Of a stretch of 64,000 nt of DNA, positions 2,115 through 64,000 are shown one piece after another; the first letter of the stretch is position 1, and every line of letters begins with the position of its first letter. The notes under the pieces are model-generated. The model did not search any database. It saw only the letters and a list, made by a program, of their open reading frames with translations, and was not told the DNA's origin. Location: assembly GCA_030272155.1 (NCBI GenBank), contig CP126195.1, positions 5,191,001 through 5,255,000 of the forward strand. The letters run 5' to 3'. Both the position numbers and the translations under genes were made by a program. This DNA is from Tetradesmus obliquus (Eukaryota; Chlorophyta; Chlorophyceae; Sphaeropleales; Scenedesmaceae).

Positions 2115-5100
2115 CTACACAGCCTTGCCTGGCCCTGCTGCATTGACAACACGAGCTGCCCCAGGCGCTCTGCCAGGGCCCCCAGCACCCGCAGCAGCAG
2201 CAGCAGCTGGAAGCTTGCCATCTGGGCCTACCACTGCTGCAGCTGCTGCTGGCAGCCTAGCCCTCATCCTGCCCCTGCTACCAGCCGGCGCAAATGCACC
2301 GCCGCCAGACGCCACCACACCGCCACCAAAGTGGGGCGCAACTGCTCGCCCGCCGCCAGCAGCAGCAGCAGCAGCACTGGGACCCAGCCCGCTGCCAGCT
2401 GCAGCCAGACTGATGCCAGCTGCTGCAGCTGATGCCATGCTGGCTGCAACGCTACTACTGCCGCCAGCGCCAGTTCCACTTCCAGCACCAGCAGCTGCAG
2501 GCAGGCTGGGGAAGCAGCGCTGCTGCAGCCTGGCGAGCTCTGCGCTGGCTGCCTCAATCTCTGCTGCCTGCGCAGTCGCGATGTCCAGCAGCTGGCGCTG
2601 CATGCGCAGGCTGCGCGCGGTGCGGTCGCTGCCGGGGTCCCCTGCTGCTGCTGCGCCCTCCAGGCGGCCGCGGTCATCCAGCAGCTTCTCCAGCCCTGCA
2701 ATGCATAGGGACAATGCATGGTCAACATCAAGTTGGCGTCATTATCACAGATACACCGAGCAACCACGCATTTGTTTGTATACGGATTATATATTACAGG
2801 GACTCGTGATGTCGTTGCACAGCAAGCAATCACATGGGCTGTACAAGGCCTTGCAACTCGTGCTTGGATCCCGCCACGCATGTTTGCAGCCTCTAAGCTC
2901 ACCCGTGAGGTGCAGCGCCACTGACGCGTTCTCCGCCTCTTTGGCTGCAATGTGCGCCTCAATGCGCCGCAGCTGGCTGCGCTTCTCCTCCACAGACTTG
3001 GCCTGCAGCGTCTCGCGCACCTGCTCCAGGCAAGCAGCGGCAGCGGCACCAGCAGCACGAATGCAAGAGTCAGCTTGAGCTCGCTCGAGCGCTGTGCGTT
3101 GGTGTCAGAGCATACGCAAGCTGCAAAACCTGCCTGTCGAGACTGCCGGGCAAAAGCTTGTTGGGTTGGTGACAAACAAACACCGCTTCCTGCCAGTGAT
3201 GGGCCGGCTGCTGGTGTCACTGCACTGGCTGCAGCCAGCTGCAGTTGCCACCCACCTTCATCAGGTTCTCCAGGCTTGCTGCCTCCTTGTTGGCCTGCCC
3301 AGCGCCATTGCTGCCGCCAGCAGCCCCACCACCACCACCAGCTGCTGCTGCAGCAGCGGCAGCAGTGCTGACGGCTCCAGCACTGCCAGGTGCTGTGCTG
3401 CTGGCCTTCACCAGCTGCTGGAATTCCTTGGTGACGTGCAGCAGCTGCAGCTGCTGCGTCAAGTGCGTCACATCTTCAGCCTGCGGCCGGATCATGCGCA
3501 AAGGGATGGCAGGAGCAGGCATTTGCCGATCAACTTCAAGCACGCGGTGAGCGTGCGGATCAAGGGGGTGAACGTATGCATACATCACACGACAGCTGGC
3601 ATCTTCAAGCAGCGCTGCGCTCCATAGGAGGGCATAATTATGCGGGCGGCACAAGTACTCAAACCAAGTGCCGCAGATAATCTGCTTGTCTTTGTGCTGC
3701 CTGTGGGCATGGCCTAACAACATGCCCAAACAACATGTAAAGCCCAGCAAACGCAGCAGCCCGCGACGTACCTCCATGTCGCACTTCCTGTTCTCCCACT
3801 GCAGCGTGTAAAAAGATGCCCCAAGCAAACTCAACAGAAAGACCCCGAAACAGTACAGCATACCCACCCACACAGGGCACGAAGCACACCCCAGCGAACC
3901 TCCATGTCGCACTTCCTGTTCTCCCACTACAGCGTGTACATCGATGCCCTCAGCAGAACGCGACAGAAGGCTGATCCATGGGCCCCCCCCAAAAACAGAG
4001 CACACACACAACAAGGGCAAGCAGAAAACCCCAGCGCACCTCCATGTCGCACTTCCTGTTCTCCCACTGCAGCGTGTACCAGCTGGACCCCAAACCAACA
4101 CAGCACACCCACTCACAAAGGGCACGCAGCAAACCCTCGTCTAGCGCACCTCCATGTCGCACTTCCTGTTCTTCCACTGCAGCGTGCATATAGATGCCCC
4201 AAGCAGAACCCGACAGAAGGCTGATCCATGGGCCCCCAAAAAACAGAGCACACCCACTTCAGAGAGGGCACGCAGCAAACCCTCGTCTAGCGCACCTCCA
4301 TGTCGCACTTCCTGTTCTCCCACTGCAGCGTGTACATGCTGCGCTTGAAGTCCTTCATGGCGCGCAGCGCCTCCAGCTTGGCGGCGCCCTTGGAGGCGAT
4401 GACGCCGTTCAGCCCCGCCACCTGGCCCACGCCCACCAGCAGCGCGTCAGGCAGCGACCCACACACGCCAGCAGGGGGCACCTCCACCTGCAGCGCAGTA
4501 GCATCACAATACAATACGATACAACGTGCCTCAGGATTGAAATCTGCCTCAGGCACAAGCCCCGCCACCTGGCCCACGCCCACCAGCAGTGCGTCAGGCA
4601 GCGCGCCACACACACCTGCGGGGGGCACCTCCACCTGCAGCGCAGTTGCATAACAACAATACAGCATAATATAATAAGCCTCAGGATTTTGATCTGCCTC
4701 AGGCACAAGCCCAGCCACCTGGCCCACGCCCACCAGCAGCGCGTCAGGCAGCGACCCACACACGCCACCAGGCGGCACCTCCACCTGCAGCCGACAGACA
4801 GGGTGGGGGCAGCAGAAGGTGGGCAGTCGATGAACGCGGATAGCGGCCCACACACGCCAGCAGGAGGCGCCTCCTCGTCTGAGGAAGCTGCTACGTATTA
4901 GAAGGTTGACATGCAGTTGTGCCTATGGCTCATGACGCTGTAGGTGACAGAAAAGCCCAGCACAGCACCTGGCTGCCACGCGCACCTGCCCCTGCTTGAG
5001 CCTCAGCTGCACCTCCACGTCATACGCTGCTGCCGCCCGCTGCGTGGTGAGCGCCTCCAGCCGCTCCGCTGCTGACCCAGCCTCGCCAGCCAGGCTGGCC

Positions 5101-6443: not shown

Positions 6444-6477
<34 letters not shown>

Positions 6478-9400
6478 GTTGGACCATTGGTTGGCTCAAG
6501 ATAAGCTGTGGACAGAGAGGAAATACAGTGCCTTATGGCATTCATCCCGCTCATGTTGCTCGACTTTGGTGAACATGCGCTGTGCTGGACGTGCAGTGTA
6601 CGGACCACACTTCATCTGCATGCTTGTTGTACCCAGCCCGCGCACCTCCAGCTGCACTTCCAGGCGGCGCCCCGCCAGTGCCGCCACCGCCTCATCAAAC
6701 TTGGCCGCCACCTCCTCAGCGGATGCCTTGAGCGTGCGCAGCTCAGTCTCCTGCAGGGGCCAGCAGCAGCGTGGCAGGCAGCGACAGCAGCAGCCACATT
6801 GCTTTAGCCAGAGTCTCACTGAGGGTCGGAGGTTTGATGGTTGTGCAGACACACAGGCAAGCCTTCCGGCTCTCTGGAGATTTGCATCCGGCAAAGCAGA
6901 CATGTGCATAGCAGGATAGCAGCAAACACATCATGCTTCCCAACATCACAACATCGCGCACCATGACCGCCTTGCGCTTCATGCGCTCCTCAATCGCAGC
7001 CGCCTCGCGCGCCGCGTGCTCCTTGTACAGCCGCAGCTGCTCCTCACTGAAGCCCGCGGGGTCGCCCGCCATCCACGCGGGGCGGCCCGCCACCAGCTCC
7101 GCCACCTCATCGCCGCTGCGCTCCAGGCGGCCACCCATCATCTGCGAGTATAATGCAGGTTTCATAAGAGGTACGCAGGCAGTGATGGTCAGTACTCATG
7201 ATGCTGGAGTCATCAGCAAGCTGGCCCGCCACCTCATCGCCGCTGCGCTCCAAGCGGCCACCCATCATCTGGCAGCACAGGAAACGACGGGTAGTGAAAC
7301 AAGCAGGCAATGGAGCAAGCAGATGTGGCTCGCTGGCGGTCAGAGGGTGTGACGAGCTTGAGCAATCAGAATCGTGTCTGGCAGGTCGACCACAAGAGAT
7401 TGCAGCAGTTGCTGCACAGTCCTGCACCCAAGCAACAACAGTACTGCATTCCCCTCTGGCTCAAAAGCACCAGCAGTATTGGCTTGTGTTGGTTTCAGCT
7501 GCAGACGCTCCGTGAGCGCCCGCGCTGCAGCAGCTGCGGCACTCATGGACTCCCACCTGCTTTAGTGCCCTGTCTGCTGAGTCGTCTGCTGCGGCCTTGC
7601 GTCGCGCCTCCTCTGCAGCGGCAGCCTCAGCAGCCGCCTTGGCACGCTCAGCTGGGGACAGGTACGGCACAGCCTGCAGGTCATATGCAGCAGCAGCAGC
7701 AGCGGCTGTTACATGCCATGCTATGTGGTGCACATTTCTGGCCGAAGGATGCCTGAATGGCGGTGCACAAGGCCACATGGAACAGCATCAAGTCCTGCTT
7801 TCACACGGGGCGATTTGGCTCATTGGGCCGGTGCCTGACGTAGGGCTCAGCCCTGGCGTTGCACTGTATTGTGCTCGCCACAAACAAGCCTCGACACGTT
7901 GATTGCTCATCACGGCAAGGTGTATCACCCTGATGTCTCGCATCCATGGGCTGCGCCAGCTGTATCGCTATCCTTGCATGTGCCCACATGCACTCTCCCT
8001 GCCACCAACATCAATCACCCAGCCTCACCTGCACCTCCTCGGGCTTCACCTCCAGCAGCTGCTCAAGAAGATGCACCGCATTGTACTTGCCGCAAGCAAG
8101 CCTTGAGACATCGATTATTGATGCACAGCACCCAACACCCAGGCTCACCTGCACCTCCCCGGGCTTCACCTCCAGCAGCTGCTCCTCCAAGTCTTCCATG
8201 CAAGCCTGAAGACACTGATTGATCATCACAACAACCAACATCACGGCTCACCTGCACCTCCCCTGGCTTCACCTCCAGCAGCTGCTCCTCCAGCTCCTCC
8301 AGCGCGCTCCAGTGCGCCACCAGCCGCCCAGCCCCCAGCTGCGCCACCAACTCAGCCCCACCCAGCTCGCCCTCACTACCGCCACCGCCACCACCAGCAG
8401 CAGCAGCAGCCACACTGCTGCTGCCTTCGCCGCCTTGTGCCAGCCCCTCTGCCCCTGCAGTGAGGCTAGAGGCCTGGTCTGTGACGGCCGAAGAAGAGGG
8501 CTGCGCTGCTGCTGCTGCTGCTGGTGCCAGCATCAGCTGGATCTTGGCCAGCTCCTTGATGAGCTCGTCCATGCGGCTGGCCAGATCGGCCAGGCGGTCC
8601 GCGTCCTTGTGCTTCTGCTTGACCAGCTGCGCAAACTCCTCGTTGAACCTGAAGCAGCAGCAGCGGCAGTATGTGTTGCAAATGCAGATACCATCAGGAT
8701 GACGCATCCAGCAGCCAGTCGATTACAGTCAACCATCAGCTGGTAATATCCTCAACCAGGCAGCAGCAGCAGCAGCAGCGGGGCCTACTCACTGTGTCTT
8801 CATCTCCCACACCATGCGCCTGTACAGCTCCGCCTGAGTGAGCTTCCGTGTCGGGTGCGTCACATCCAGCTCCGAGTACAGCAGCGCAGCAGCCTTGCAG
8901 CTAGCAGCGGCGCCGCTGCCAATCGCCGCCAGCACAGCTTGGCCTTCTGCGGCTGAGCCAGCGCCAGTGAGACCAGCAGCAGCAGCAGCAGCAGCAGCAG
9001 GGGCTGCGGAGCCGTCCAGTGTGCCACCACCCATGCTGTTGGCGCCTAGGTTTCTAGTGAGCCCCAGGGTGTCCCCAGCATCACCGTCCTCTGCAGGCTG
9101 AGGCATTGCTGCTGCTGCTGTTGCTGCAGCTGGTGCTGCTGCTGTGCTGGCTGGCGCTGCTGCTGCTGAGACTGCATCGCCGTCGCTGCTGCGGTACAGC
9201 TGGTCGCCGGAGGGCAGGCCTTGGGCTGCTGCCTCGATCATCTCGATGCGCCGCAAGTTGGCAATCTGCAAAACAGCATGTAGCAGCCACGAACACGGTT
9301 GGCAACAAGCGGTCCAGGTAACAACACGACGGAAACAGAGGATAACGACTGAAGCACCATTGGGCTAGTCACCACTTTGCAGGTAAATGTCTGATGGTCA

Positions 9401-11102
9401 GCATACTCGGGCTACAGTCGTGGCTGTCACACCTCTGTATACCTCCACAAGGCGTCATACCGACACGGGCTGACAAGCCGTCCTCACCTTCCCCCACTTG
9501 GCTTCATCTTGTGCTGGCAGTGGGAAGTTTGACACCTCCACAGCACCCGACTTGAGGCCTGTGCACAGCGCAGGCTTGGTCTGCAGCAGCACACAGCACG
9601 GCAGCATTAGACCCACCGGTAGTCATAGCTACAAGCCGCTGTCCAGCATCTGCTTTCAGGATGATCCCACACACCACACACAACATCACTGCTTCCAAAA
9701 CGCCGGTTAGCTCCTGCCATGCACAGTATGCAGCTTCAGTTGCCACCCAAGCAGGTTTGTTGAATGCATCCTATTGTTAGCTCTGCCCAGCCGCCGCTAC
9801 GCTACGCTCCGCCCCTTACCTGCATTGCGTCCCAGCACATCGCCTTGATGCGTGCCGCACGAATCTCCTGCGCCTGCGTCTCGCGGCCGCTGGCAGCCAG
9901 CAGCGCCGCCACCTCAGCGCCCACAGCGCTGCGCAGCGCCTGCAGCCGCGCCACGTCCACCACCAGCTCCGCCTCCGACAGCCGCTGGCCCTCAGGGGCG
10001 GCAGCGTTGGCCTCGAGCACCTGCGGTAACACCACCACCAGCAGCAGCAGCAGCAGTGAGGTTCTGTATTGCCAGCAATGCCTGCGTTTGAGCAAAGATC
10101 ATTACGAGGTCCTGAGCCTGTAGTGCATGCAGATGGACAAGACTGCGGCGGGTGTATGCGGACCAAAAGAAAAGACAATCATACAGAGGTGTACTAAACG
10201 TGGCAGCCGCCCAGGTGTCAGTGCATTTCAAGGGTCTGCCTCACCTCATACAGCCGTGCTTGCAGGGCGGCCAGCTTCTGCAGCGCAGCCTGGCGCACTG
10301 CCGCCCCGGCATTGCACGCTTCCGTGGTGGCTGCTGCCGCTGCCGCGTCAGGCAGTGTGGCGGCTGTGGCGTCATCGGGGCACTCCTGGTCAACAACGCC
10401 CTCACTGGCAAGCGGCAGCGTGCGCGGCGGCTGACATAGGTGCTCTGTGCCTGCAGTGCGGCACAGCACAGCGCGGCGATTTTACAGCACCTACCATGCT
10501 GCTGTCTGCATGAAGTCATGGTCAGGGGCGCAGGGGCCTGGAAGGCATCCAGCAACTAAGGCTGGTGCTGTGCAACACGGCATTTGCAAGGCAATGACGA
10601 GTTGTGCTGGTTTGACCGTCCACAACACATTGCTTCGTGTGAGGACGCCACACATGCGACACATCTGTGCTGCCACACATGCCCACCTGCTACGCTGTGC
10701 AGCAGCAGGCTGCCATCTGCAGCAGCACTTGCTGCCCACCGGCCACTAACACTCCAAGCCAGAGCTGCAGCATGCCGCCCCTCAGCCCCACTGTGCGCCA
10801 GCACAGCTGCGCCACCTGCGCCGCTGCCACCACTGCCCAATGCTGCAGCTGCTGCAGTGGCTGCTGCTGAACCAGCTGGCAGCACACTCAGGCTGCCATC
10901 CTGCCCAGCCAGCAGCATCAGCTGCCCCCCAGGGCTGACTGCAACAGCAGCAGCTGCAGCAGCCAGCTGCAGCTTTGCGGCGCTGCGCAGCACCTTGCCT
11001 TTCAGTGCTGCCCAGCCAGCAGCATCAGCGGGCAGCAGCAGCCTGTGCAGCATGCCATTGCTGCTCAGGCCCAGTACATGCGCTCCTGCAAGCTGCTGGC
11101 CA

Positions 11103-11133
<31 letters not shown>

Positions 11134-24070: not shown

Positions 24071-24118
24071 CCGCCTCCATGCGCACCATGGCCTCGTTCA
24101 CGTAGTCAATGTCAATCA

Positions 24119-25028: not shown

Positions 25029-25066
<38 letters not shown>

Positions 25067-43880: not shown

Positions 43881-43915
<35 letters not shown>

Positions 43916-43976
43916 TCCGTGGCCGGCAGCAGCTGCCAGCCAAGCAGTCGCAACCGCTGCTGCAGCAGCAGCAGTG

Positions 43977-44055
<79 letters not shown>

Positions 44056-44171
44056 CAGCAGCAGCAGCATGTACTGGTTGCATTGGAGCGTGTGCTGTCC
44101 TTCAGTGGTGACGATGAGCCAGCAGCACCACTGGCAGCAGCAGCAGCTGGCAGCAGCAGCTTGCGCAGCAG

Positions 44172-44204
<33 letters not shown>

Positions 44205-44285
44205 CCGCGTGCTGAGCGGCAGCAGCAGCGGGGCCATCAGCAGCTGCAGCAGCGGCAGGGCAGGCATAGACATATCATCACCAGG

Positions 44286-44318
<33 letters not shown>

Positions 44319-45392: not shown

Positions 45393-45460
<68 letters not shown>

Positions 45461-45594
45461 GGCAAACTGTCAGCAGCGGCGGCAGCAGCAGTGCGCAGCT
45501 CCCAGGCATATACAGCACCAGCACTAGTGCAGGGGCAAGCCTCACAGACTCTACTGCTGCTACTGCTGCTTGGTCTGTTCCGAGCAGCTACGCT

Positions 45595-45626
<32 letters not shown>

Positions 45627-48600: not shown

Positions 48601-49622
48601 CCCTGCCTCAGCTGCACCTTTCACACGCTCCTTATTTGCACTGCAGGCACGTCGCGTGCGCGCTGTGGCTTGCCAGAAGGCCAGCTGCGGCACCGGCTGT
48701 GGCACGGCGGCCGCAGTTCTGCTGCATGCCGTTGTTTTTCCCGATCCTGGTGTTGTTGATCAAGCCTGATCAAGCCTGCGGCCCTTTCACATCAGCCTCT
48801 TTGTCCCTCCGCACTGCATTGTGTCATGTTTTGCAGGCGCGGCGCGTGCGTGCCGGCTTGGCAGATGGCCAGTCACCTGCCGAGCTGTGGCGGGTGTGGC
48901 TTTATGGCAGCCAATTCTGCTGCATTGCATAATTCAATCCATCAAAACCTGCGGCCCTGTTACATCGACCTCTTTGTGCTGCTGCGTTGCGCTGCACTGT
49001 ATCATATACACTTGCAGGCGCGCCGCGTGCGTGCCGGCTTGGCGGACGGCCAGTCTGCTGCCGAGCTGCGCCGGCTGTGGCCGTACGGCAGCCAGTTCTG
49101 CTACATCGCATAATTCAATCCATCAAAACCTGCGGCCCTGTCACATCAAACTCTTTGGCGTCTGTGCTGCACTGTGTCATATATACTTGCAGGCGCGCCG
49201 CGTGCGGGCAGGTTTGGCGGACGGCCAATCCCCTGCTGAGCTTCGCCGGCTGTGGCCGTACGGCAGCCAGTTCTGCTGCGACTGGCTCACTCGGCTTGAA
49301 GTGGCAAGGGGCGCAGCAGCAGGCCTGGAGTACATGCACCAGCACGGCGTCATCCACAGAGACCTTACAAGTTATAACCTGCTGCTAGACTTCGGCAAGC
49401 CCTGGCAGGTGGGTTTAGCTCGTGCAGGGTTTAGGTTTTGGTGTGTTTGGGGTTGAGACGGCCTGTTGCAGCTGCAGGCCTGGAGTACATGCACCAGCAC
49501 GGCGTCATACACATGGACCTGATCAGCTACAACCTGCTGCTGGACTTTGGCAAGCCCTGGCAGGTGGGTTCCATCTGTCTTCCATCTGTCCCGCATGGTG
49601 GCGCAGCAGGCTCACCTTCTTG

Positions 49623-49673
<51 letters not shown>

Positions 49674-50876
49674 ACCGCTGCTAAACCCCACCTCAGGTCA
49701 AGGTGTGTGATTTCAACCTCAGCCGCATGGTGGCGCAGCAGGCTCAGCTAGCCAACAGCGGCAACCCCAACAGCCCCGGCTGGCAGAGCCCTGAGATGCT
49801 CGCGGGGCAGCCCTATGGCAAGGCGGCTGATGTGTTCAGCTTTGGGGTCGTGCTGTGGGAGGTGATGACGCTCAAGGAGCCCTGGAGGTGCGGTTTAGCG
49901 GATTTAAAGAATCAAGGGGTTTGGGCTTAAGGGTTTTGGTGTTTTGGCAGCATTATGGGAAAGCCGCGGGCGTGTTCAGCTTTGGGGTGGTGCTGTGGGA
50001 GGTCATGACGCTCAAGGAGCCCTGGAGGTGCGGTTTAGTGGACTGTTCCGGTCCAGGGTTTAGGGTTTCAATGGTGCAGGTTTTAGGGTTTTATGGGGGT
50101 GAGGTTGGCCGGCAACCCCAACAGTCCGGGGTGGCAGAGCCCTGAGATGCTCGCAGGGCAGCCCTATGGCAAGGCCGCTGATGTGTTCAGCTTTGGGAGG
50201 TCATGACCCGCAAGGAGCCCTGGAGGTGCGGTTTAGCGGCGAAATCACCCACTGGTAGCTTGCACAGCAGTTCATGTTGGTAACGCTGGCTGCTGCTGTC
50301 TGTATCTGCCACGGAGACGCAGGGTTGCACCTTGCTGTGCGACTTCATGAGCTTCAAATGGCAAGCCAGTTACAAGCTTTTGTCAAGGTGTTGAGACCTC
50401 CTTTTGTTGGAACCTGTTTGATTTCACTGCAGGGAGGAGACCGAAGGCCGCACCGCGCTGTACTACATCACGACTTGAATCACACACCACATGCAGCTCG
50501 CACAGCACACATCATGTTGCTGAAGCCTGTTGCTGCTTCATCTGCTTGCAGGGAGGAGACGGAGGGCCGCACCGCGCTGTATTACATCATGAACTGCGTC
50601 ACAGCAGGCAGCCGCCTCAGCCTGCCTGAACCCTGCGAGCTGTGCGAGCAGGGTTTAAGCCCCGAGGCCGCGGCGCAGCTGCTAAACCTCACACGCAGCT
50701 GCTGGCTGCAGCTGCCGCTGGAGCGTCCCACCATGCCTGAGGTGGCAGCAGCGCTGGGGAATCTGGTGAAGCTGCTGCGGCAGGAGAAGCGAGCAGCAGC
50801 AGTGGCTGCGCTGGCTGCCGCGTCAACGGGAGGCGGCGCAGCAGCAGCAGCAGCAGGGGTGAACGGCGGTTCATAA
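34769..50876 (+). CDS. Giant TKL-type protein kinase, 18 exons, about 2388 aa
   Basis: Exons: 34769-34942 (tentative), 35601-35795, 36288-36404, 36516-38110, 38443-38554, 38776-38838, 39214-39294, 39630-39982, 40251-40419, 40899-41522, 42068-42172, 42880-43074, 43759-45924, 46883-47042, 47885-48210, 49193-49408, 49697-49887, 50552-50876 (TAA). Sum 7167 nt with phases closing. The first about 1980 residues are Gln/Ala/Ser-rich with short ordered segments (ALTNTRRVARLAAAPEGL; LFKSLKRATDSVINGLLRVK). The C-terminal kinase shows GNGSYGQV, VAIK (Lys about 2026), FKAEVDFQRKL (Glu), HRDLTSYN (about 2200), VCDFNLSR (DFN instead of DFG) and GWQSPEML. An Ala-rich insert sits after the alpha-C region. 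This resembles Raf-like/TKL kinases common in green algae; the substrate is unknown. Nearly all introns from exon 7 on carry exon-edge ghosts. The first exon is antisense to the region upstream of the RraA start. Confidence 0.88.
35174..35230. repeat. Pure (CAG)19 microsatellite
   Basis: 57 bp of uninterrupted CAG inside the first, tentative intron of the kinase gene. It is in CAG rather than CTG orientation relative to that gene, unlike the intronic runs near acceptors. Confidence 0.95.
35735..36070. repeat. Duplicated donor edge of kinase exon 35601-35795
   Basis: 36019-36069 repeats the coding for KGAKQKAILQARAF and the GT donor of the real exon end, about 275 bp downstream. The copy has no acceptor. 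Confidence 0.85.
36940..37750 (+). repeat. Poly-Gln coding microsatellite cluster in the kinase N-terminal region
   Basis: Many CAG runs (about 36945-36971, 37102-37121, 37322-37350, 37451-37475, 37614-37638, 37663-37698) read as Gln in the long exon 36516-38110, interspersed with Pro- and Gly-rich stretches. They are translated, so length changes alter the protein. Confidence 0.9.
39090..39275. repeat. Ghost of kinase exon 39214-39294
   Basis: 39094-39150 resembles 39214-39260 (WAEEAYKRAK) but has lost the acceptor and the second half. Confidence 0.8.
39943..40106. repeat. Duplicated donor edge of kinase exon 39630-39982
   Basis: 40066-40104 repeats the coding for IELMRDIKERCR plus GTGGGG, about 122 bp after the real donor. 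Confidence 0.9.
40625..40930. repeat. Degenerate short repeats and duplicated acceptor edge of kinase exon 40899-41522
   Basis: A run of GTACTGCACA-like decamers fills 40630-40890. Within it, 40763-40812 copies the acceptor and first codons (VSSDARMV) of the real exon at 40899. Confidence 0.85.
41895..42318. repeat. Ghosts on both sides of kinase exon 42068-42172
   Basis: 41897-41950 copies the exon start (YEELEAAAAYCEAG) and 42269-42316 copies the exon end (ASEVEEAL...LEDLQ with GTGGGC). Spacings are about 170 and 145 bp. Confidence 0.85.
42465..43565. repeat. Five ghosts flanking kinase exon 42880-43074
   Basis: Upstream copies with acceptor at 42469-42553 and 42712-42800 (start of exon, FYLALTNTRRVARL). 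Downstream copies with donor at 43153-43239, 43317-43403 and 43475-43561 (CESALKLVQDYDTSAL...SEDQ/GT). The downstream units are 158-165 bp, each an exon tail plus an intron head, still open in frame. Confidence 0.93.
43865..45700 (+). repeat. Poly-Gln and poly-Ala coding microsatellites in kinase exon 43759-45924
   Basis: CAG and GCA/GCT runs code Gln and Ala tracts. The longest is 45394-45459, 22 CAG codons in a row. Others are at about 43880-43912, 43970-44066 and 45596-45624. Confidence 0.9.
45911..46088 (+). repeat. Five tandem 36-bp units, each with a splice donor
   Basis: The unit starts TGAGCATGATTCAGGTGGGT and repeats five times (about 45911, 45947, 45983, 46019, 46055), nearly identical. 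The first contains the true exon end ATTCAG/GTGGGT at 45924. Use of later donors would read into an in-frame TGA. Confidence 0.95.
46335..46945. repeat. Five copies of the acceptor edge of kinase exon 46883-47042
   Basis: Starts at about 46335, 46474, 46610, 46742 and 46883 (real), spacing 132-141 bp. Each carries CAG acceptor, SDDEFWKIRWADLEPGLLRK-like coding and then 30-60 bp of intron ending in AAACCCTAA-type sequence. Confidence 0.95.
47095..47290. repeat. Two decayed copies of the donor edge of kinase exon 46883-47042
   Basis: 47100-47153 and 47203-47288 resemble the sequence coding YGQVFQGTYLNAQVAIKVLN with the terminal GT donor. Each has small deletions. Confidence 0.85.
47337..47965. 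repeat. Five copies of the acceptor edge of kinase exon 47885-48210
   Basis: Copies at about 47337 (partial), 47426, 47577, 47729 and 47885 (real), spacing 151-155 bp, coding LSAETLLRFKAEVDFQRKLS. Introns between them end in AAACCCTGCAG. Confidence 0.95.
48150..48487. repeat. Three copies of the donor edge of kinase exon 47885-48210
   Basis: Units at 48149-48210 (real), 48283-48343 and 48422-48485, coding KLAIVMELCHLGSLFSMIGQ then GTGAGG or GTAAGG. The intervening intron pieces contain GGTTTAGGGTTTAGGGG. Confidence 0.95.
48645..49290. repeat. Four copies of the acceptor edge of kinase exon 49193-49408
   Basis: Starts at about 48647, 48838, 49018 and 49193 (real), spacing 175-191 bp, coding ARRVRAGLADGQSPAELRRL and WPYGSQFC. 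Confidence 0.95.
49318..49565. repeat. Duplicated donor edge of kinase exon 49193-49408, including the catalytic loop
   Basis: 49474-49564 repeats the catalytic-loop end of the exon with GTGGGT donor. The copy reads HMDLISYN where the real exon reads HRDLTSYN. Confidence 0.9.
49627..49671 (+). repeat. (CTG)15 before the DFN exon acceptor
   Basis: Pure CTG run 25 nt upstream of exon 49697-49887, in the orientation typical of intronic runs here. Confidence 0.9.
49785..50232. repeat. Three copies of the donor edge of kinase exon 49697-49887
   Basis: Real end at 49887; copies at 49950-50028 and 50112-50227 (coding QPYGKAADVFSFGVVLWEVM...EPWR with GTGCGG). The third has an internal deletion that breaks the frame. 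Confidence 0.92.
50432..50600. repeat. Duplicated acceptor edge of the last kinase exon
   Basis: 50434-50478 repeats CAGGGAGGAGAC and the coding for EETEGRTALYYI found at 50551-50590. Confidence 0.9.
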
Positions 50877-51811
50877 TGCTGCTGCATTTGCTGCGGCAAG
50901 CTGCAACAGAGGGCGCAGCAGCAGCATGTTGCAGCAGTATGTTATGTCAGCTGCAGCTGCCGCTGGAGCGTCCCACCATGCCTGAGGTGGCAGCAGCATT
51001 AGGGAATTTGGTCAAACTGCTGCGGCAGGAGAAGCGAGTAGCGGCAGTGGCTGCGCTGGCTGCTGCGTCAACAGGGGGCGGGCGGCAGCAGCAGGGCTGA
51101 ACGGCGGTGCATGATGTTGCTGCATTGGCTGCGGCAAGCAGCACACAGGGCGAAGCAGCGGCATGTTGCAGCAGTATGTTATGTCAGCTGCAGCTGCTGT
51201 TAATGTGTCCCACCACGCCGGAGGTGGCAGCAGCGCTACGCAACCTGGTGAAGCTGCTGCGGCAGGAGAAGCGGGCAGCAGCAGTGGCTGCGCTGGCTGC
51301 TGCATCGGCGGGTGGTGGCCCAGCAGCAGCAGCACCTGCAGCAGCAGGGCTGAGCAGCGGTTCATAATGTTGCTGCATTGGCTGCGGCAAGCAGCAACAG
51401 AGGGCGCAGCAGCGGCGTGTTGCAGCAGCGTACTTTGTCAGCTGCAGCTGCCGTTTAGAGCGGCCCACCATGCCTGAGGTGGCAGCAGCACTAGGCCGGT
51501 GCAGCACTACGCCGGTGCAGCAGCAGCAGCGGCAGGGGTGAACAGCGGTTCATAATGTTGCTGCATTGGCTGCGGCAAGCAGCAACAGCGGGCGCAGCAG
51601 CAGCATGGTGCAGCAGCATACTTTGTCAGCTGCAGCTGCCGCTGGAGCGTCCCAGTATGCCGGAGGTGGCAGCAGCGCTAGGCGTTGCGACCTGGTGAAG
51701 CTGCTGCGGCAGGAGAAGCGAGCAGCAGCAGTGGCTGCGCTGGCTGCTGCATCATCTGGTGGTGGCCCAGCAGCAGCAGCAGCAGCTGGAGCAGGCACTG
51801 CTGGCGTGTAA
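50684..51811 (+). repeat. Five-unit array of the 3' end of the last kinase exon
   Basis: Units start at about 50700, 50950, 51187, 51437 and 51630 and code LPLERPTMPEVAAALGNLVK...LLRQEKRAAAVAALAA. The first belongs to the CDS (stop at 50876). The others follow in the 3' UTR, several ending in a similar stop. Frames are shifted or interrupted in some units. Confidence 0.93.
51807..51811 (+). terminator. Candidate poly(A) signal TGTAA of the TKL kinase
   Basis: First convincing TGTAA after the terminal-exon array, about 930 nt from the stop. If used, the array is transcribed as 3' UTR. Confidence 0.4.
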
Positions 51812-54630: not shown

Positions 54631-56655
54631 GCCAGGCGCCAGCCGCCCAGCAGGCACGCTGAGTGCCATGGAGGAGTACATGAAGCGGCTGGATGCTGCG
54701 GCAAGGCAGAAGCAGCGAGATGATGAGGCGGCAGAAGAAGAGGAGGAGCGGCGGCGGCGCGCGGCGGCGCCACTGCTGAAGGAGACCGCGTTTGACCGGC
54801 GCAAGGTGAGGGTTGGTGTTGTATGATCTTTTTCTTATTGTTGTAATGGTAATATAGTGCATGTCAGCTGAGGAGGAGGAGGAGCAGCGGCGTTGCTGCT
54901 GGAGGAGACGGCCTTTGACCGGCGCAAGGTGCGAAATGTGGTGTGTTTTTGTGTTATTGTTGAAAATTACAGCGCGATGACGAAGCGGCAGAGGAGGAGG
55001 AGGAGCGGCGGCGGCGCCGGCGCGCGGCGGCACCGCTGCTCAAGGACACGGCGTTCGACCGGCGCAAGGTGCGTTGTGCTGTTGTTTTGTTGTTAGAAAC
55101 AGCGTGTGGTGGCGGTGTACAAGGATGAGGGCGCGCGGCGCACTCTTTTGTCAAGCCGTTGATACATATACTTTTTAATTATTAATGTGACCACATGCCA
55201 GTGGTGCGCTGAATTTACCATATGTTGCTGCAGGTGGTGGGGAGTGTTAAAGGATGACGGTGCGCGCGGGCATGACATATCCTGACAACTAAATGACAGC
55301 CTTTTTTGATACGTTGCCGCAGGTGGTGGCTGTGTACAAGGATGACGGCGCGCGGGGCCACCACATGGACGACTTCATCCCAAAAGAAGAGCTGGCCAAG
55401 TTTATGGCTAAATGTGGTGATGACAAGCTGGCGCAGCAGGTTGGTGATCACTTGAATATTGTTTGTTGTTTGTTGGATATTGGCAATTTTTCCAAGGTAG
55501 GAGCTGGCCAAGTTCATGGCCAAGTGTGGTGATGACAAGCTGGCGCAGCAGGTGTGTAGTTTGATTGATTGTTGGTTGTTAGGTATGAGGTATGAGGTTA
55601 GGATGTTGTTGGGTAATTGTTAGGCATGAGCAAACTTGTCGAAGGAGGAGCTGGCCAAGTTCATGGCGATGACAAGCTGGCGCAGCAGGTGCGGGGTTTG
55701 ACGCTGACTGGCAGCGGTTTAAGATTGAGGGCTCAATCAGTGCGGTGCCAACCTCACACTGGGGTGCGGTCAACCCAAGCTGGGTTGACTTGCTTAGTGG
55801 AGCAGGTGTTAGTACTCCCTGCATTTGATGACATGCTCATAACCTGTTTCTTGTAGCCAGCCCCTTTAACAGTCGAAATTACTTTGCACTGTTCTTGTTG
55901 CAGGTGGAGGCGCAGTCAGCCATCGGCGCCGACAACATCGGCCACAAGCTGCTGCAGAAGATGGGCTGGAAGCAGGGCAAGGGCATCGGCGCCAAAGAGG
56001 ACGGCCGCACCGCGCCAGTGGCGGCCGCAGGCGCCGGCGCTGCTGCTGCTGCTGCTGCTGGTGGCAGCCGGCAAGATACGCTGGGCCTGGGTGCTGCTGC
56101 GCATGGCGCAGTGGAGGAGGGCGATGATCCTTTTGAGCAGTACCGCAAGCGCATGATGCTGGGGTACAAGTGAGTGCGGGGTTTTGGGCGTGCACATGCA
56201 GGGATTCAGGGGCAGCGTTTTGTGGCCGTGGCAGTTTGTTAAGGATATGGGCAGCACCGCAACGAATATGATGCTGGGATACAACTGAGTGCAGCTCCCT
56301 GGGGTTGCCTTGAGGCAGGATACGCTCGGGCTGGGGGCTGCTGCGCATGGCGCAGTGGAGGAGGGGAATGATCCCTTTCAGCAGTACCGCAAGCACATGA
56401 CGCTGGGGTACAAGTGAGTGCAGTTTCAGGGGTTGTGGGGAGTAGGCAAGTCGCTTGATTGGCAGAAGTTGCGCGTGAGTTCATGGTGCTCATAACACTA
56501 CCTTGGTTCAAGACCATCTGCTCACCCAGATGTCTCAGTGTGCAGCGCTGCGTCCATGCAAGCGGTTCAGCAAGTTTGCGTCTGTTTGCGGCGGTTACTT
56601 GCTGGGTTGCATAGCCTGTGCAAGCTTCAGCAATGTGCGTCTGACACTGCCTGTC

Positions 56656-56694
<39 letters not shown>

Positions 56695-57581: not shown

Positions 57582-60500
57582 ATGGCCGGCTTCAGGTGTT
57601 TTTTGTTGCTGTTTTGGTGTATCAGCAACATCATCGGTGAAACAGCCGCAGCCGAAGAGGGTCAAGGCGCTACTGCTTTCGTCTCTCAGCCCCTCAGGGA
57701 CAACACCACAACGACCTTGGCAGCAGCGCTGAAGGACCAGCGTGTGACCAGAATCGTTCTGTTGACCAACTACACTGCGGAGAAGGACACATGGCCCAAC
57801 CAGCAGCAGCTGCCAGGCACCTACCTGGCCATCAACAGGTGAGCATGTCAGTGCAGCTGCTCAACTGGCTTGCTACCTAGCCTGCAGCTGATCGTATTTG
57901 CTGGTCACGCAGTTAACATGTAAACAGCAATACAATAGTGGTGATGACGGTTTAATGCTGTCTGGTCTACTTGCTGCTGGCTGGCACCCTGGCTTGCAAC
58001 TGTGGCATTTGCTGTGATGCCACTCTCACAGCTGAGCTGGCACATTACCGCCAGCCGCACCATCAGCTGGCTTAGCTTCTTTAAATACACTGCAACGTCA
58101 CGCCCGTTTCGTGCCTGCGTCAGCATCAGCAGTGGCAGCTGCAGCAAGGAAACTCATAGGAGCTGCTCTGGCGGCACTGCTGTGAGTGCCCGTGCTGCAC
58201 ACACGCACAGCAGCAGCGGCAGCTGCAGCCTGAGCATCAAAAGAAGCTTCCACTGCTTGGCACTGCTTGGCATGCATGCAAAGGCATGCACCCTTTCATT
58301 ACACGATTACATGCTTGCAGGAACCTGGCCACGAGCGTATGCATGGCCACCTGTGCTATGTTTCACCCAATCTCCAAGCATGTGCCCTTGCTTGGCTTGC
58401 ACCCTCACATGCTTGCAGGAACCTGACCATCACCGGCGCACAGGGCACTGTCACATTGCTAGAGCTCTGTTCTCAGCCCTGTGCCCTGCTTGGTTGCTTG
58501 CAGGAACATGACCATCACCGGCGCGCAGGGCACCCAAACGGTACTGGACATGGCCTTCAAGCTGAGCGCGGCGCTGCTGTGCGGCAGCTGCAGGCTGACC
58601 GTGCACAACCTGACAGTCACCAATGAGCGCAGGGGCAACGGCAGCCCATGGTGAGCAGCTGCGCACAGCAGTAGCAGCAGCAGCAGCGGCAGCAGCTGCA
58701 GTGGCAGCAGCTGCGGCGGCAGCAGCAGCAGCAGTGGCAGCAGCAGCAGATGGATGTTCCAGCAAGGGGTGTGTCTGGCCTGCATGCCGTGTGCCGCCCT
58801 CGCGTCAGTGCTGAGCTCTTTCACATGGTACGGGCAGCAGCAGCAGCAGCTGCTGCCATTGCAGCCTGGCTGCAGCACAAGTGCTACAATCAATCGATGC
58901 CGCTAGCAACGCAAGTAGTATAGGTGCACAGAAGCCAAGTGCTCAGTCTTGCTGCGCTGTCGGTCACAATCGCAGCTGTGGGTGAATGCGGTAGCTGGCC
59001 TGCCGTGGGAAGTGCAGCAGCAGTCGGGCTACGGTGGAGTTTACCGCGGCTGCTGGCACAGCTGGCAGCCAGCAGCTGCCAATAAGTAATAGATATCAGA
59101 TAAAAATTGACAATCGAGGCGCAATATCCGGCCTGCTGCTGCTGCATCCTGGTGTTTTATGCTTTTCAGGGACTTCTTTGTGGGTCCTGCAGGCAGCAGC
59201 AAGGCAGCCGTCATCATGAAGGACATCATCAGGTAAGCAGGCAGGCCCTGTGCTGTACAGCAACATGCACTGCTGTGCATGCCTTGGTACGCTTTCGTGC
59301 TATTTTGGGGGCATGCAGTCATGTGTCCAATTGCTTGCGTGTGCATTGCATAGCGTGTCAAATGCCATCATCATGCAGGACAACGTCAGGTGGGCAGCAG
59401 AGGCCCCCTGCATTGCAACCCGATGCTCTGCCGTGCCTGTACTGTAGCCCCACACTGCATTGCAGAGCATACCACACTGCACTTCTGGCAGTGGATACTA
59501 ATACAGATTCTCATTGCAAAGCAGTACGTATCGAGGCCGGTGTATCTGCATTCATAAGTGTGTCGTGTGTGCTGCATGCTGCGTGCTGCGCCTGCTGCAG
59601 GCTGCGCTACGGGTGCACTTCTGCCAATGCCAGCATTGTTGTGGCGGCTGCCCTGAAGCGGCCTGACTGGCTGCCCGGCAGCAGCAGCGGCTTGCAGGAG
59701 TTCAGGGTGGAAGACGTGGACTTCCAGGTGTGAACCTGAGTGTGAACTTTCTGCGGCTGCCAGGCAGTGACACATTACCGCGGCAAATGCTTGTGGTTGT
59801 CTTTCAGTTTGTCGGCTGTGCGGTGAAGTTCAGGTTGCATGTGGCGATTGCAATGTATGATTATGATTGCATGTGGCGGAGCTGTATCTTTTTAACTCCA
59901 TGATGCGGCTGCACTTTGCATGCTTTATTTCTCAAACATGTACTGCTGTGTCTTGTGTGTGCTGCCATGGATACACCGCAGGGCCACATGTATCCACAGT
60001 CCTTGGTTTCCCTGGACTATGCCGCGGGTGAGAGCAGCACCACCAGCACAACAAATTGGTGACGCAGCAACGGCATTTGGCAGCAGAAGCTGCAGGCATG
60101 TCACTGAGAAGCAGAAGCACAGGCATGGGTTGTCCACACTGCAGCAGCAGCATTTGCAGAGCTTTGATGCTGCATTGACAAACGCACACGGCCTTCAAGC
60201 TGATTGCTGCTGCTGTTTGTGCTGCCGCAGACATCCCACGCACCGTGCAGGAGGGGCGCGGGGCGTTCGGTGGCTATGCAGTGGTGAGCCGCACAGCTGA
60301 CTGCTGATATGCTACACGCCAGTTTGGCCAGTGTGGCAAGTTTAAACAGCGGATAACACATCATCGCTGCTTGCGTGATTGAATCAGGGCCGACACGGGC
60401 AATCTGCTTTGACCCAGATCTAATCAGCCACGCGCCATGGCTGACAGGCATGCTCTGATCAAGCTGCTCAGCGTTGCTCGTCACGTATGCGTGATGCCGG

Positions 60501-60632: not shown

Positions 60633-60684
<52 letters not shown>

Positions 60685-61683
60685 GTGTCCCTGCAGTGGT
60701 GCCTCAACGTGACGCAGCTGTGCATGCGCACAGTGGCCACGGCCTGCCTGGAGACAAAGAGTGTGGATGTGAGTGCGGGCGCTTCCTGCAGAATCAGGTG
60801 TCAGCTGCCTGCTCTGATTGTATACGGCAGGCTCACACAGAATCTGAAAATGATTAGTTTGCGTACCATCTGCCTGCTGCAATAGTACACGTGGCGCTGT
60901 GGTGTGAACGTGCTTTGTTCCTTGCCTTGCCCGACACTGCGTCATCCGGACGACAAAATAACAAAGCAATTTGACACCACCTTGGTTTTTTTTTTTGCAG
61001 GCATGTGTCAATGATCTCATTGATCAGGCACTCGCAGGCGGCCAGTCAGCACAGCAGCAGCAGCAGCTGCCGCTGGGCCTACTGGCAGCAGCCATTGCAG
61101 TCCCGCTGCTAATAGCCCTGCTGCTGGCGCTAGCAGCCGCACTATTCATCAGCCGCCGCCGCAAGCAGCAGCAGCAGCAGCTGGATGCTCTGAAGCAGCA
61201 GCAGCAGCAGCGGCTGCTCCAGCAGCAGGACAGTGCGAAGCAGCAGCTGGTGACGCCGGGGGGCAAGTCAGGGGCGTCAGTGGGCGGGCAGTACGGCACT
61301 GATGCAGATCCAGAGGCTGGGCTGCCGCCTGGCCCTTAGTGAGTGGCATTGCTTTGCATTGTAATAAGCGTATGACAACAATGCACATCACTAGCCCTTA
61401 GTGAGTAGCGGTGCCCTGCAATGCAGTAACCGTATAGCATCAATGCACATCACTAGCATTTAGTGAGTGCCATTGCTTTGCATTGTAGTAAGCGTATGGC
61501 ATCAATGCACATCACTGGCCCTTTGTGAGTGGCGGTGACTCGCAATGCAGTAACCGTATAGCATCAATGCACATTAGTCCAATGCATCGAATGGCATCAA
61601 CCCAAGCTCACATCATATCATCACACACAACGCAGCCTGTGCCCCAAGCTCTGCTTGCCTGCTGCTGCTTCTGCATTCATGCC

Positions 61684-61716
<33 letters not shown>

Positions 61717-62163
61717 CAGGCGTCTGCTGGTGCCCGCCAAGCGACAGGCGCATACTGCTAGCATGCAGACACAGCTGCCTGCTCATTTTCACACTCATTC
61801 ATGCCCAAGCTCATTACCTTGCTTTCCTTGTCCTGCTGCTACGCTGATCATGACGCCTGATTTTTTGGGTGCTGCTGGCAGTGCTGCTGCTTCGCTGCAT
61901 ACTTGCTGATGCCCAAACTCACTGCCTGTCTTTCTCTGTCACGCTGCGGCGCTGATCACGGCACCTGTTTCTTATCATCTTATCACTGCTGCTGCTGGCA
62001 GTGCTGCTGAGGGCTGCGCCAGCGTGCTGTGCCAGGGCCTGCTGGCTGGCGGCACGGGCTGGCACAGCTGTATGCTTTGCTGCATACTTGCTGATCCCTT
62101 GATTTACTGCCTTGCTTGCCTTGTCCTGCTGCGGCGCTTATCATGGCACCTGTTTGTCTGATC

Positions 62164-62195
<32 letters not shown>

Positions 62196-64000
62196 CAGTG
62201 GTGCTGAGGGCAGCGCCAGCGTGCTGTGCCAGGGCCCGCTGGCTGGCGACACGGGCTGGCAGCAGGCCTGCCTCACCTCGCCCATTGTGGGCTCGCTGGA
62301 TAACCAGGAGGTGCAGTTTGGTGAGTTCCCAAGGGACTCTTTTGAAGTATGTTCGGTTTGTTGAATCTTTCGGCACGTTAATGCCTCACCTCCCCCCTGG
62401 TGGGCTCGCTGGACAACCAGGAGGTGCAGTTTGGTGAGTTGCCAAGGGGCGCTTGTGAAGTTTGTCTGATATGTTTGGGCACGCTATGCCTCACCTCGCC
62501 CATTGCGGGCTCGCTGGACAACCAGCAGGTGCAGTTTGGTGAGTGTAGTGTGTTCACGGTTGCTTGCTTAGTGCGTCAGTGCTATGATGTCCAATGTCAA
62601 GGTGGTGCGCCAGAGCTGTAACACTTCAGGTTGCCCAGGGTTTGCCGGTGCCCGAGTTCGACCACACATGCTGCTGCTGCTGCTGCTGCTGCTGCATGCT
62701 GTCATGTGGTAGCTGATGCCGGCACTGTCTGCCGTGATGTGCTGGTTCTGCTCCGCCACCACATGCCTTCTCTCTCCTGGCATAGCTTGCCTGCTGTTGC
62801 TGCCGACAGTGCTGCTGCTGCTGCTGCTGCTGCTGCTGCAGGCAAGCTGCTGGGCCAGGGCTCCTTCGGCAGAGTCTACAGGTGCGCTGGCTGGCGTCTG
62901 CGCTGCAGACAGCCCCAGACATGTGCAAAGAAATGCTGCCATTGCTGGCCTTGCAGCGTTATCATGTGCCTGGGCTACGTGACTGTGCATGTTGGGTAGT
63001 TATCCATGTGATGTGCTGTTGCGGCAGGCATTGCGGTTACTGGCATCCTCACGCTGCTGCTGCTGCTGCTGCTACTGCTGCCCTGCAGGGCTTACTGGTG
63101 AGCATGGCACACTCCACAGCCGCCAGCAGCGTCTCAAAACACTTCAATGGCAAGCGGTTCAGCATGCATGCAGCAGACGCACAGCAGCTGGAAGTGTGTG
63201 GGACGTAGCAACACCAACAACGCCTCATGCACTGCTGCTCAATCCATCATTGCAAATGCTGTACTGCTGTCATATCTGACTGTTGCGCTTTGCAGCCTGT
63301 CACTGTTCTATACACCATTGTCGATGCTTCCACAGTATTGCCTGCTATGACAAGCTGCTGCTGTGTGGCTTTTTAGCAGTTTTTGTTCACACTGCCACCG
63401 CCACATCGTGTACTGTGGCTGTTGCATCTCAAACATGGCTCTAACATTGTAACAACTTCTAAACTGCTGCCAAGCAGGGCTGGCCGTGAGGTGGCTGTCA
63501 AGGTGATCGACCATGACAGCGAGGCGCATGCTGCTGTAGCAAACGAGGTGGAGCTCATGCTGTCCTTCAACCACCCTAACGTAGTGAGTGCAAGCATTGT
63601 GCAACATCCTTGCATACCTTTGCACTTAGTATCCTTATATAGCAAGACAAGGTGGAGCTCATACTGTGCTTCAACCACCCCAACGTAGTGAATGCGCGAC
63701 ATTGGCACAAATCCTTGCTTGCATATCCTTGCAAATAGTATCATGAGGTGGAGCTGGTGGAAGCAAGCTGCGCAGCACTGCTGCCTTGACTGAAGTTGGT
63801 GCCAGTGTGTGGCCGCCTGCTTTCGAAGTAAGTAGGTAGTTGACCGGCCAGCTTCCTGCTGCTTTACGAATGCCTCGCAGGTGCGCGCCCTGCACTGCGT
63901 CACATGGACACACGTGCAAAAGGACGACGCAGCAGCAGCCGCAGCATCTGCAGCAGCCACAGCAGCAGCAGCAGCTGCCGCTAGCCAGTGCTCAGCAGGG
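57582..64000 (+). CDS. Receptor-like transmembrane protein kinase with probable beta-helix ectodomain (3' end outside the window)
   Basis: Exons: 57582-57838, 58504-58650, 59170-59232, 59601-59727, possibly 59808-59822, 59982-60027, 60231-60283, 60697-60768, 61001-61338, 62199-62320, 62842-62881, 63478-63583, 63881 to the window end. Except for the ambiguous 59728-59981 interval (skipping or including the 15-nt exon gives the same phase), phases close. A signal peptide is clear (MAGFRCFLLLFWCISNIIG). The ectodomain has repeated NLT/NMTITG and LTVHNLTVTN motifs and the order W...INR..TI.G, as in pectin-lyase-like beta-helix ectodomains of algal receptors. A transmembrane helix (LLAAAIAVPLLIALLLALAA, near residue 290) is followed by RRRK. 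The cytosolic part begins a kinase N-lobe: GQGSFGRV, VAVKVID (Lys), NEVELM (Glu), HPNVVRALHC. The catalytic loop lies beyond the window. Ligand unknown. Exon edges are again copied in introns. Confidence 0.85.
58315..58560. repeat. Copies of the acceptor edge of receptor exon 58504-58650
   Basis: 58417-58462 copies CTTGCAGGAAC and the coding for TITGAQGT. A shorter copy of the acceptor is at 58314-58330. Confidence 0.85.
59205..59395. repeat. Duplicated donor edge of receptor exon 59170-59232
   Basis: 59363-59391 resembles 59205-59232 (IIM.D..R with GT donor), about 159 bp downstream. Confidence 0.75.
60627..60683 (+). repeat. (CTG/TTG)n run before receptor exon 60697-60768
   Basis: About 18 triplets, CTG with two TTG interruptions, ending 13 nt from the exon. 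Confidence 0.9.
61331..61565 (+). repeat. Four tandem units of about 60 bp starting at a splice donor
   Basis: Each unit begins with (C)CCTTAGTGAGT-like sequence and ends near ATCAATGCACATCACT. The first contains the donor of the membrane-segment exon (CCCTTA/GTGAGT at 61338). Units alternate between two slightly different versions, suggesting a dimer was duplicated. Confidence 0.9.
61870..62545. repeat. Ghosts on both sides of receptor exon 62199-62320
   Basis: Upstream copies with acceptor at 61990-62060 (and a shorter one near 61868) coding GS/AEG.ASVLCQG. Downstream copies with donor at 62380-62436 and 62485-62539 coding CLTSP..GSLDNQEVQF/GTGAGT. Confidence 0.92.
63535..63692. repeat. 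Duplicated donor edge of receptor exon 63478-63583
   Basis: 63647-63690 repeats the coding for VELMLSFNHPNV with GTAGTGA, about 107 bp after the real end. Confidence 0.88.

Follow-up and report, generated by a model that had tools for sequence, protein, structure and literature searches.

Why should introns carry copies of the edges of the exons beside them? The question is raised by a 64,000-nucleotide stretch of the genome of the green alga Tetradesmus obliquus (contig C5, positions 5191001-5255000; hereafter the window), which belongs to a sequence of 104,662,953 bases in 17 contigs and has a GC content of 54-62% per 4 kb. We refer to an extra copy of an exon edge, with its splice site, inside the neighbouring intron as a ghost, and distinguish donor-type ghosts, which are copies of exon ends, from acceptor-type ghosts, which are copies of exon starts. 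The pattern of copies at junctions is genuine. Our explanation for it is tentative and held with less than even confidence: the ghosts may be local duplications anchored at exon-intron junctions, hidden by splicing and neutral afterwards, whose sequence came from other functional alleles by way of break repair between homologues.

The analysis draws on this one genome sequence alone, in which exon edges were predicted or recognised by protein sequence. Twenty random 10-kb stretches (200 kb) of the 104.7-Mb genome served as the genome-wide comparison. A wider set of 35 sequence sources (326,937 bases, each source with an L label) holds the window, the random stretches and the loci L029-L034, which contain chaperonin and kinesin genes and were in part picked for visible ghosts. 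Exons were predicted by a small hidden Markov gene finder that was trained on homology-supported exons and iterated over the 35 sources, with introns shorter than 55 nt disallowed in the final run; it yielded a clear splice consensus (mostly (C)AG|GTG.G and TGCAG|G). The gene finder often predicts ghosts as exons, which makes predicted intron lengths unreliable; 106 of 145 donor ghosts lie past the next predicted acceptor and 69 of 122 acceptor ghosts past a predicted donor. Because ghosts are mistaken for exons in this way, the key counts were redone on exons recognised by protein sequence.

Copies at exon-intron junctions

A self-BLAST of the window returned 87 local direct repeat pairs (at most 1 kb apart), no direct pairs beyond 1 kb and no inverted pairs, and a shuffled copy returned none. 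Local repeats take up 20.9% of the bases. The pairs cluster into 46 arrays, of which 41 touch a predicted exon edge (three of these only by fully covering predicted exons), three are intron-only and two are exon-internal, so an earlier note on this DNA that claimed about forty local arrays was close to the mark. The random stretches yielded 128 local direct pairs, six more distant direct pairs and six inverted pairs, against none in shuffled copies; a local pair is present in 16 of the 20 and a ghost at a predicted junction in 15. Their arrays lie at edges in 47 of 62 cases, with eight intron-only, two exon-internal and five intergenic. At 46 arrays in 64 kb, the window is richer than this random sample, which has 62 in 200 kb.

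Placement at junctions is far from random. Across all sources there are 154 arrays, 130 of them touching a predicted exon edge, 15 intron-only, four exon-internal and five intergenic. For arrays that consist of a single pair, random placement predicts roughly 29% at edges, 31% intron-only, 22% intergenic and 18% exon-internal; the observed numbers are 60, 11, 3 and 4 of 78, respectively, which supports the proposal that the copies are anchored at exon-intron junctions. Repeats cover 1.6% of predicted intergenic DNA, 16.9% of exon and 17.4% of intron sequence. In a junction profile restricted to exons of at least 90 nt, from which those more than half covered were removed (254 donors and 252 acceptors retained), coverage is highest on the exon side of junctions and amounts to 4-6% at -50 to -20 before acceptors. 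Of 222 pairs of adjacent copies (BLAST, all loci), 153 have a spacing of 80-159 bp; the mode is 120-129 and none is below 70, while Tandem Repeats Finder gives some units shorter than 70 bp in the window; in 152 of the 222 pairs the alignment spans less than 0.8 of the spacing. Evidence for the copies that is independent of the self-BLAST is provided by a whole-genome Pfam run, in which three more matches, within model positions 260-289, lie upstream of a kinesin exon that matches 263-326, and two partial copies lie upstream of a chaperonin exon that matches 40-101.

The copies also obey a rule of direction, as had been claimed: copies of exon starts lie upstream and copies of exon ends downstream. 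When 1.2 kb on both sides of 18 exon edges was searched in genes matched to protein families, 20 copies were found on the expected side and none on the opposite side. Ghosts are present at 11 of these 18 edges, the 11 having been chosen for visible ghosts; seven edges in two kinesin genes, added later to the search, have none. Together with the five of 20 random stretches that lack a junction ghost, these kinesin edges contradict the statement that every gene is affected. Four random stretches (L013, L018, L019 and L024) are without local repeats, with 18 predicted introns in L013 and 26 in L019, and either ghost density differs among genes or these two stretches do not hold ordinary genes. 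The kinase gene of the window illustrates the rule at two exon edges. An exon ends at 48210 (IGQ|GTGAGG) and is followed by two copies of exon end, GT and intron start; upstream of an exon that starts at 49193, intron end, AG and exon start are repeated near 48838 and 49018, and near 48647 by eye only.

A broader search took 45 nt from each predicted exon edge, required at least 70% identity on the expected side only, and removed ghosts that had been predicted as exons. It found ghosts at 148 junctions (76 donor and 72 acceptor), with one ghost at 79 junctions and two to nine at 69. The copied stretches of exon edge are about 35-130 nt long and occur in one to several copies. In ghosts of at least 85% identity, the GT is retained in 91 of 96 and the AG in 66 of 75. 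Most exon-side positions of these ghosts are at least 0.9 identical, as they were selected to be, and identity falls to about 0.5 within 8 nt into the intron. Ungapped similarity on the intron side extends 9 nt or less in 33 of 56 donor ghosts and beyond 100 nt in five, and 7 nt or less in 26 of 49 acceptor ghosts and beyond 100 nt in three; for both kinds combined, 59 of 105 close ghosts lose it no more than 9 nt from the splice site. When gaps are allowed, 47 of the 128 pairs with at least 80% identity in the exon part have no intron similarity and 24 have it in part. Some copies thus join a highly similar exon part to unrelated flanking intron, and these are not complete tandem duplications of recent date. 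Complete recent tandem units (at least 88% identity) number seven in about 327 kb, four at junctions, two in introns and one intergenic.

The inner edges of ghosts mostly lack splice sites that score like real ones (4-31% score above 3). Donor-like sites occur near the inner edge of acceptor ghosts in 12-31%, compared with 0-3% in the intron between copies and 19-38% at the same place in the exon. Most ghosts do not carry both splice sites of a whole exon, as tandem exon duplication or mutually exclusive exons would have it; a few pairs in L012, L014 and L030 resemble whole-exon copies. A first count of splice-like sites common to both copies gave a weak signal (146 of 212 strand-assigned pairs, versus 553 of 1060 for simulated copies of random segments). 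The idea that copies decay with distance from the exon fared poorly. Among ghosts above the score cut, differences per codon are flat from the first to the fourth ghost (0.235, 0.239, 0.238 and 0.251; n=136, 68, 31 and 12), and the one count in its favour, taken up below, leaves the effect weak at best. In 76 of 107 adjacent ghost pairs the ghosts resemble the exon more than they resemble one another, with 17 opposite and 14 ties, a result that a slowly evolving exon would also produce.

Two observations concern how ghosts are read by annotation tools. In a kinesin gene on contig C2 (L029, 600-1760), several upstream copies of an exon start (seven by eye) lie within about 1 kb; they have CTG-rich spacers and are read by the gene finder as one long open frame, and annotation of this stretch could yield a false repeat protein. 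In the window, positions 111-138 of the Pfam kinase model match a ghost at 49468-49551, in another frame, besides the real exon.

Silent differences between ghosts and exons

Most differences between ghosts and their exons are synonymous. The 450 codons of 20 curated ghosts, with the frame taken from the protein, hold 109 synonymous, 23 nonsynonymous and nine multiple differences. With the frame taken from the exon, codons with a single difference divide into 180 synonymous and 86 nonsynonymous in 62 pairs, 541 and 306 in all ghosts of the 148 junctions, and 383 and 149 in the 128 nearest ghosts, where some pairs were counted from both edges. The synonymous share is 0.64-0.72 across five overlapping counts and 0.83 in the curated conserved genes; random single changes would give 0.27, and about 0.40 is expected when a neutral ghost is paired with an equally old exon under constraint. 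Ghosts predicted to be non-exon have a share of 0.64 at 80-90% identity and 0.71 above 90%. The ratio of third- to second-position differences is 3.7-5, where 1.54 is expected for a neutral ghost of equal age; without the identity split it lies nearer to that neutral value, at 2.4, or 2.0 outside CpG.

The direction of the silent differences suggests where they arose. Synonymous differences between GC and AT are nearly symmetrical (208 versus 166), and the remaining asymmetry implies, if a neutral GC of 0.56 is assumed, that about 19% (+-9) occurred on the lineage of a neutral ghost. That share predicts about 243 nonsynonymous single differences, and 237 were observed. We infer, with a wide error and under the assumed neutral GC, that most of the synonymous differences arose on codon-biased functional lineages. 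A ghost that is neutral now and carries synonymous differences from a functional past is most simply a copy of another allele, or a product of exchange with one. In simulations, the synonymous share of neutral ghosts came to 0.42-0.45 in the absence of sex and to 0.58-0.69 when sex was combined with high silent diversity.

How ghosts may arise

One possible mechanism, the one we tentatively favour, is that each ghost begins as a local duplication anchored in an exon. Such a duplication would survive where the first donor or the last acceptor is still the one used in splicing and the mRNA is unchanged, and duplications internal to exons would be purged by selection. Ghosts would be neutral once formed, and many of their synonymous differences would predate the copying, having been made on functional gene lineages; the copied sequence would be taken from, or exchanged with, other alleles of a large sexual population with deep silent diversity. 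The likeliest route would be the repair of breaks between diverged homologues, in which strand invasion requires the conserved exon. Repair synthesis would then cross the splice site into the diverged intron of the partner, and the second end, lacking homology, would be end-joined, placing the exon edge and intron start of the partner beside the resident pair. Repair of this kind would put duplications at exon-intron borders, with the splice site often limiting the similarity. Junction anchoring, direction, limits at splice sites and rarity between genes would all follow from repair that is anchored in the exon and end-joined in the intron.

A number of results weigh against this explanation. 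Intron similarity is retained in 57 of the 128 gapped pairs with at least 80% identity, and the inner edges of sibling ghosts coincide to within 3 nt in 82 of 167 pairs, where the null is 10.6%; both indicate that ordinary duplication of units in register also contributes. The 120-bp spacing is not predicted by repair from a homologue, and donor and acceptor ghosts occur in one intron only somewhat more often than chance would have it (19 versus 10.3 expected). Where a family holds at least two ghosts, the nearest ones differ from the exon by 0.301 and the farthest by 0.367. The synonymous excess is not uniform, as ghosts of 70-80% identity look neutral with a share of 0.41. It is also possible that some constraint acts on ghosts: changes private to single ghosts (122 synonymous, 98 nonsynonymous) and differences between ghosts (213 and 160) both exceed the random 27% synonymous, and interior indels per substitution are several-fold rarer in ghosts (27 in 254 ghosts) than between intron copies (66 per 568 substitutions). 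The curated share of 0.83 exceeds every simulated value, which implies either still higher diversity or constraint on some ghosts, and the silent diversity that the simulations require, about 0.07-0.27 per codon, is high for one species.

Several of these points speak for a simpler account, which is doubtful but deserves serious weight: ordinary tandem duplication of about 125 bp, by slippage or unequal exchange at random in genes, with gene conversion keeping exon edges alike while introns drift and selection removing exon-internal copies. The retained intron similarity, the shared inner edges, the seven young complete duplications and the weak distance effect in one count all agree with it, and simulated conversion with sex gave a synonymous share of 0.54-0.65 in the larger populations (400). 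Conversion in smaller populations or without sex reached only 0.29-0.44, and the account predicts neither the near-absence of arrays from predicted intergenic DNA nor their 60 to 11 preference for junctions over intron-only positions, which should be about equally frequent. The repeated tandem duplication that the earlier note envisaged thus stands as far as anchoring at junctions goes, and falls short in the pairs without intron similarity, the few complete units and the mostly synonymous differences. Duplication of whole units followed by neutral decay was rejected as a full account, given that exon parts often outlast intron parts and young complete units are few. It is unlikely that the ghosts are functional, with working splice sites used in some transcripts and an encoded protein under selection, although this would fit the strong synonymous excess, the low number of stops at 80% identity or more (one in 2516 codons), the few indels, the high retention of GT and AG, and inner donor-like sites of acceptor ghosts that are commoner than in inter-copy intron, if not than in exon. 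Against function, indels shift the frame in 24 of 27 cases (found in 23 of 254 ghosts), stops rise to 6 in 4808 and 12 in 3891 codons in wider sets, and copy spacing is evenly distributed modulo 3. Usable GT/AG pairs between copies show no excess (17 versus 17 and 15 versus 13), inner splice sites are mostly absent, and no way is known in which a ghost could be joined to what remains of its exon. Ghosts as independent exons or as in-frame read-through were likewise discarded, with inner sites mostly missing and only 19 of 66 and 23 of 62 inter-copy stretches open, as was splicing from the GT of one copy to the AG of the other, which shows no excess over the reverse.

That the ghosts are an artefact of assembly, in which segments from a second haplotype or strain were placed next to the first at points where a conserved exon borders on a diverged intron, is improbable. 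It would account for similarity limited to the exon, and the synonymous differences would be allelic divergence. Yet 24 of 59 arrays with at least two ghosts contain at least three copies with two or more synonymous codon differences between any two of them, which exceeds what one diploid can supply unless the copies mutated after copying; up to nine ghosts occur at a junction, and their spacing is regular. Contig C5 opens with TTTAGGG telomere repeats, which suggests a chromosome-scale assembly, whereas the final 180 bases of its opposite end are without them. Creation of introns by tandem duplication of exon pieces containing AGGT is a mechanism known elsewhere (PMC3443670, PMC2891723) and is highly improbable in this case. 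None of 467 predicted introns begins like its downstream exon and one ends like its upstream exon (the gene models being imperfect), and the ghosts adjoin splice sites that already exist; the suggestion that ghosts create introns thus finds no support, while extension of introns by ghosts is plausible. Three other candidates were set aside. A single insertion that splits an exon into left and right ghosts is striking in two chaperonin exons but overall accounts for three of 24 cases, with 2.0 expected. Second-order selection by recombination that returns ghost sequence to the exon did not raise the synonymous share in simulation (small runs were noisy, 0.30-0.54), and a comparison of L002 with L003 for ghost gain found only a 35-nt DNA match in common.

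Arrays of the window

The window was scanned with Pfam on the minus strand of its first half and the plus strand of its second half, with 32-36 kb left out. Matches in Pfam or the PDB identify CFAP43/FAP43, a zinc dehydrogenase, an RNase_T exonuclease, a kinase at 49-50 kb, and Surp and G-patch domains; a second kinase near 63.5 kb has a Pfam E of 4e-5, under Pfam's own cut-off. In a PDB search the first gene matched FAP43 in one frame and nothing in the other two, and an Rfam search of the window gave zero matches at the gathering score. Arrays were delimited by clustering the self-BLAST pairs and classed against predicted exon edges.

On the minus strand, the CFAP43 gene has a donor array at 3751-4341 and an acceptor array at 4411-4874. 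An acceptor-type ghost at 7099-7271 is 98% identical over 46 nt, with similarity from the CAG onward. Donor-type arrays follow at 8006-8301, 19871-20131, 20443-20861 (exonuclease gene) and 23853-24079. In the zinc dehydrogenase gene, a donor-type ghost at 24726-24934 is 98.6% identical over 69 nt and its similarity stops 7 nt inside the intron, and an acceptor-type ghost lies at 24960-25142. Further acceptor-type ghosts are found at 25616-25777 (98% over 50 nt) and 26737-26929, and donor-type arrays at 26385-26711, 26964-27332 (dehydrogenase gene) and 28281-29194 (several copies). Acceptor-type arrays occupy 29237-29405 and, with several copies, 32271-32836. The donor-type ghost at 32990-33149 is identical at 39 of 39 nt, and the intron after it is apparently unrelated.

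On the plus strand, donor-type arrays at 35747-36072 and 39947-40134 are followed by acceptor-type arrays at 41878-42112 and 42391-42972, a donor-type ghost at 42124-42326 between them, and a donor-type array at 42985-43563. A tandem array of 35-bp units at 45911-46087, classed as donor-type, is a young full-unit duplication of 5.1 copies at 98%; its nearly perfect units differ from the usual 120-bp spacing. An acceptor-type array at 46242-46948 and a donor-type array at 46962-47296 precede the arrays of the kinase gene. These comprise an acceptor-type array at 47327-47958, the donor-type array of the exon end at 48210 (48130-48491, ghosts at 48285-48344 and 48420-48484), the acceptor-type array of the exon start at 49193 (48772-49279, ghosts at 48837-48913 and 49018-49095), a donor-type ghost of the catalytic-loop exon (49313-49570, ghost at 49489-49563) and a donor-type array at 49759-50239. 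An acceptor-type array lies at 50428-50603, and an array at 50705-51683 touches both edge types. A donor-type array at 54761-55095 lies between the Surp and G-patch exons, with an acceptor-type array at 55106-55366 and donor-type arrays at 55383-55701 and, adjoining the G-patch exon, 56071-56435. The remainder are an acceptor-type ghost at 58410-58533, an acceptor-type array at 61801-62261 and donor-type arrays at 62269-62544 and, in the second kinase gene, 63537-63742. Five arrays were not classed at an exon edge. Three are intron-only, at 40613-40934 (which breaks the rule), 49591-49749 (so classed by the gene models) and 61329-61574 (tandem, unit 124 or 62 bp), all on the plus strand, and two are exon-internal repeat pairs that also break the rule, at 10901-11029 on the minus and 39107-39252 on the plus strand.

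CAG/GCA trinucleotide runs are abundant across the entire window. Telomere-like words were seen at 42100-50000 and in introns of other loci, with TTTAGGG occurring in introns 28 times in sense and five times in antisense orientation, where shuffled introns have 13 and 6; contig C5 opens with a repeat of this type. Predicted introns of at least 150 nt have GGGTTT most often in the 50 nt that follow the donor and AAACCC most often in the last 75 nt ahead of the acceptor, both in sense orientation.

Related systems and intron growth

A search of the titles and abstracts of open-access papers found no description of systematic copying of exon edges into introns. Minisatellites are tandem arrays with inter-allelic conversion, and an exchange of units between alleles is likewise proposed here; the present arrays differ in that a coding exon edge forms one of the units, and in having a small number of diverged copies. 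Introners, which are dispersed similar elements, likewise reflect a genome-wide process acting on introns. The copies described here are local and gene-specific as far as tested, the self-search of the window having turned up neither distant direct repeats nor inverted ones.

Among the closest cases are those of ATP2A1 and the potato RdRp gene (PMC4974935), in which a local tandem copy also holds exon and splice-site sequence and, in potato, crosses an intron-exon boundary. In contrast to these, existing introns are lengthened here, at 148 predicted junctions in about 327 kb and with allele-like differences; copy limits often fall at splice sites, and no new intron was demonstrated. Tandem repeats are enriched toward intron ends in the green algae Chlamydomonas and Volvox as well, according to a survey that took in units of 1-50 bp and reports GT/AC dinucleotides to be plentiful in introns; copied exon edges are not described in the portion of that survey used here (PMC3887541). 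The Tetrahymena leucine-rich repeat (LRR) genes, with tandem arrays of 90-bp exons, likewise multiply exon-intron units by unequal exchange; to judge from the cited part of PMC6564038, whole coding exons are multiplied there, whereas here partial exons stay inside introns.

Each intron of this kind is apparently fed by its own neighbouring exon and, if this is confirmed, ghosts would provide a route of intron growth whose rate can be measured. Transposons and repeats are known causes of intron lengthening. Table 1 of PMC5966456 gives Tetradesmus obliquus a mean intron length of 462 bp; the means for three other Sphaeropleales are 230, 302 and 284 bp, and that for Chlamydomonas is 270 bp. Growth fed by ghosts would be consistent with the long introns of Tetradesmus obliquus. 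If confirmed, the ghosts would also supply decoy splice sites and be called as exons by gene predictors, as happened with our gene finder. A wider view, which we hold to be rather doubtful, is that in a hyperdiverse sexual alga recombination or repair between homologues is anchored in conserved exons and fails where introns have diverged, so that exon-intron borders are duplicated, exon edges of other alleles end up in introns, and introns both grow and archive past alleles. The introns of Tetradesmus obliquus may in that case be a record of its old alleles.

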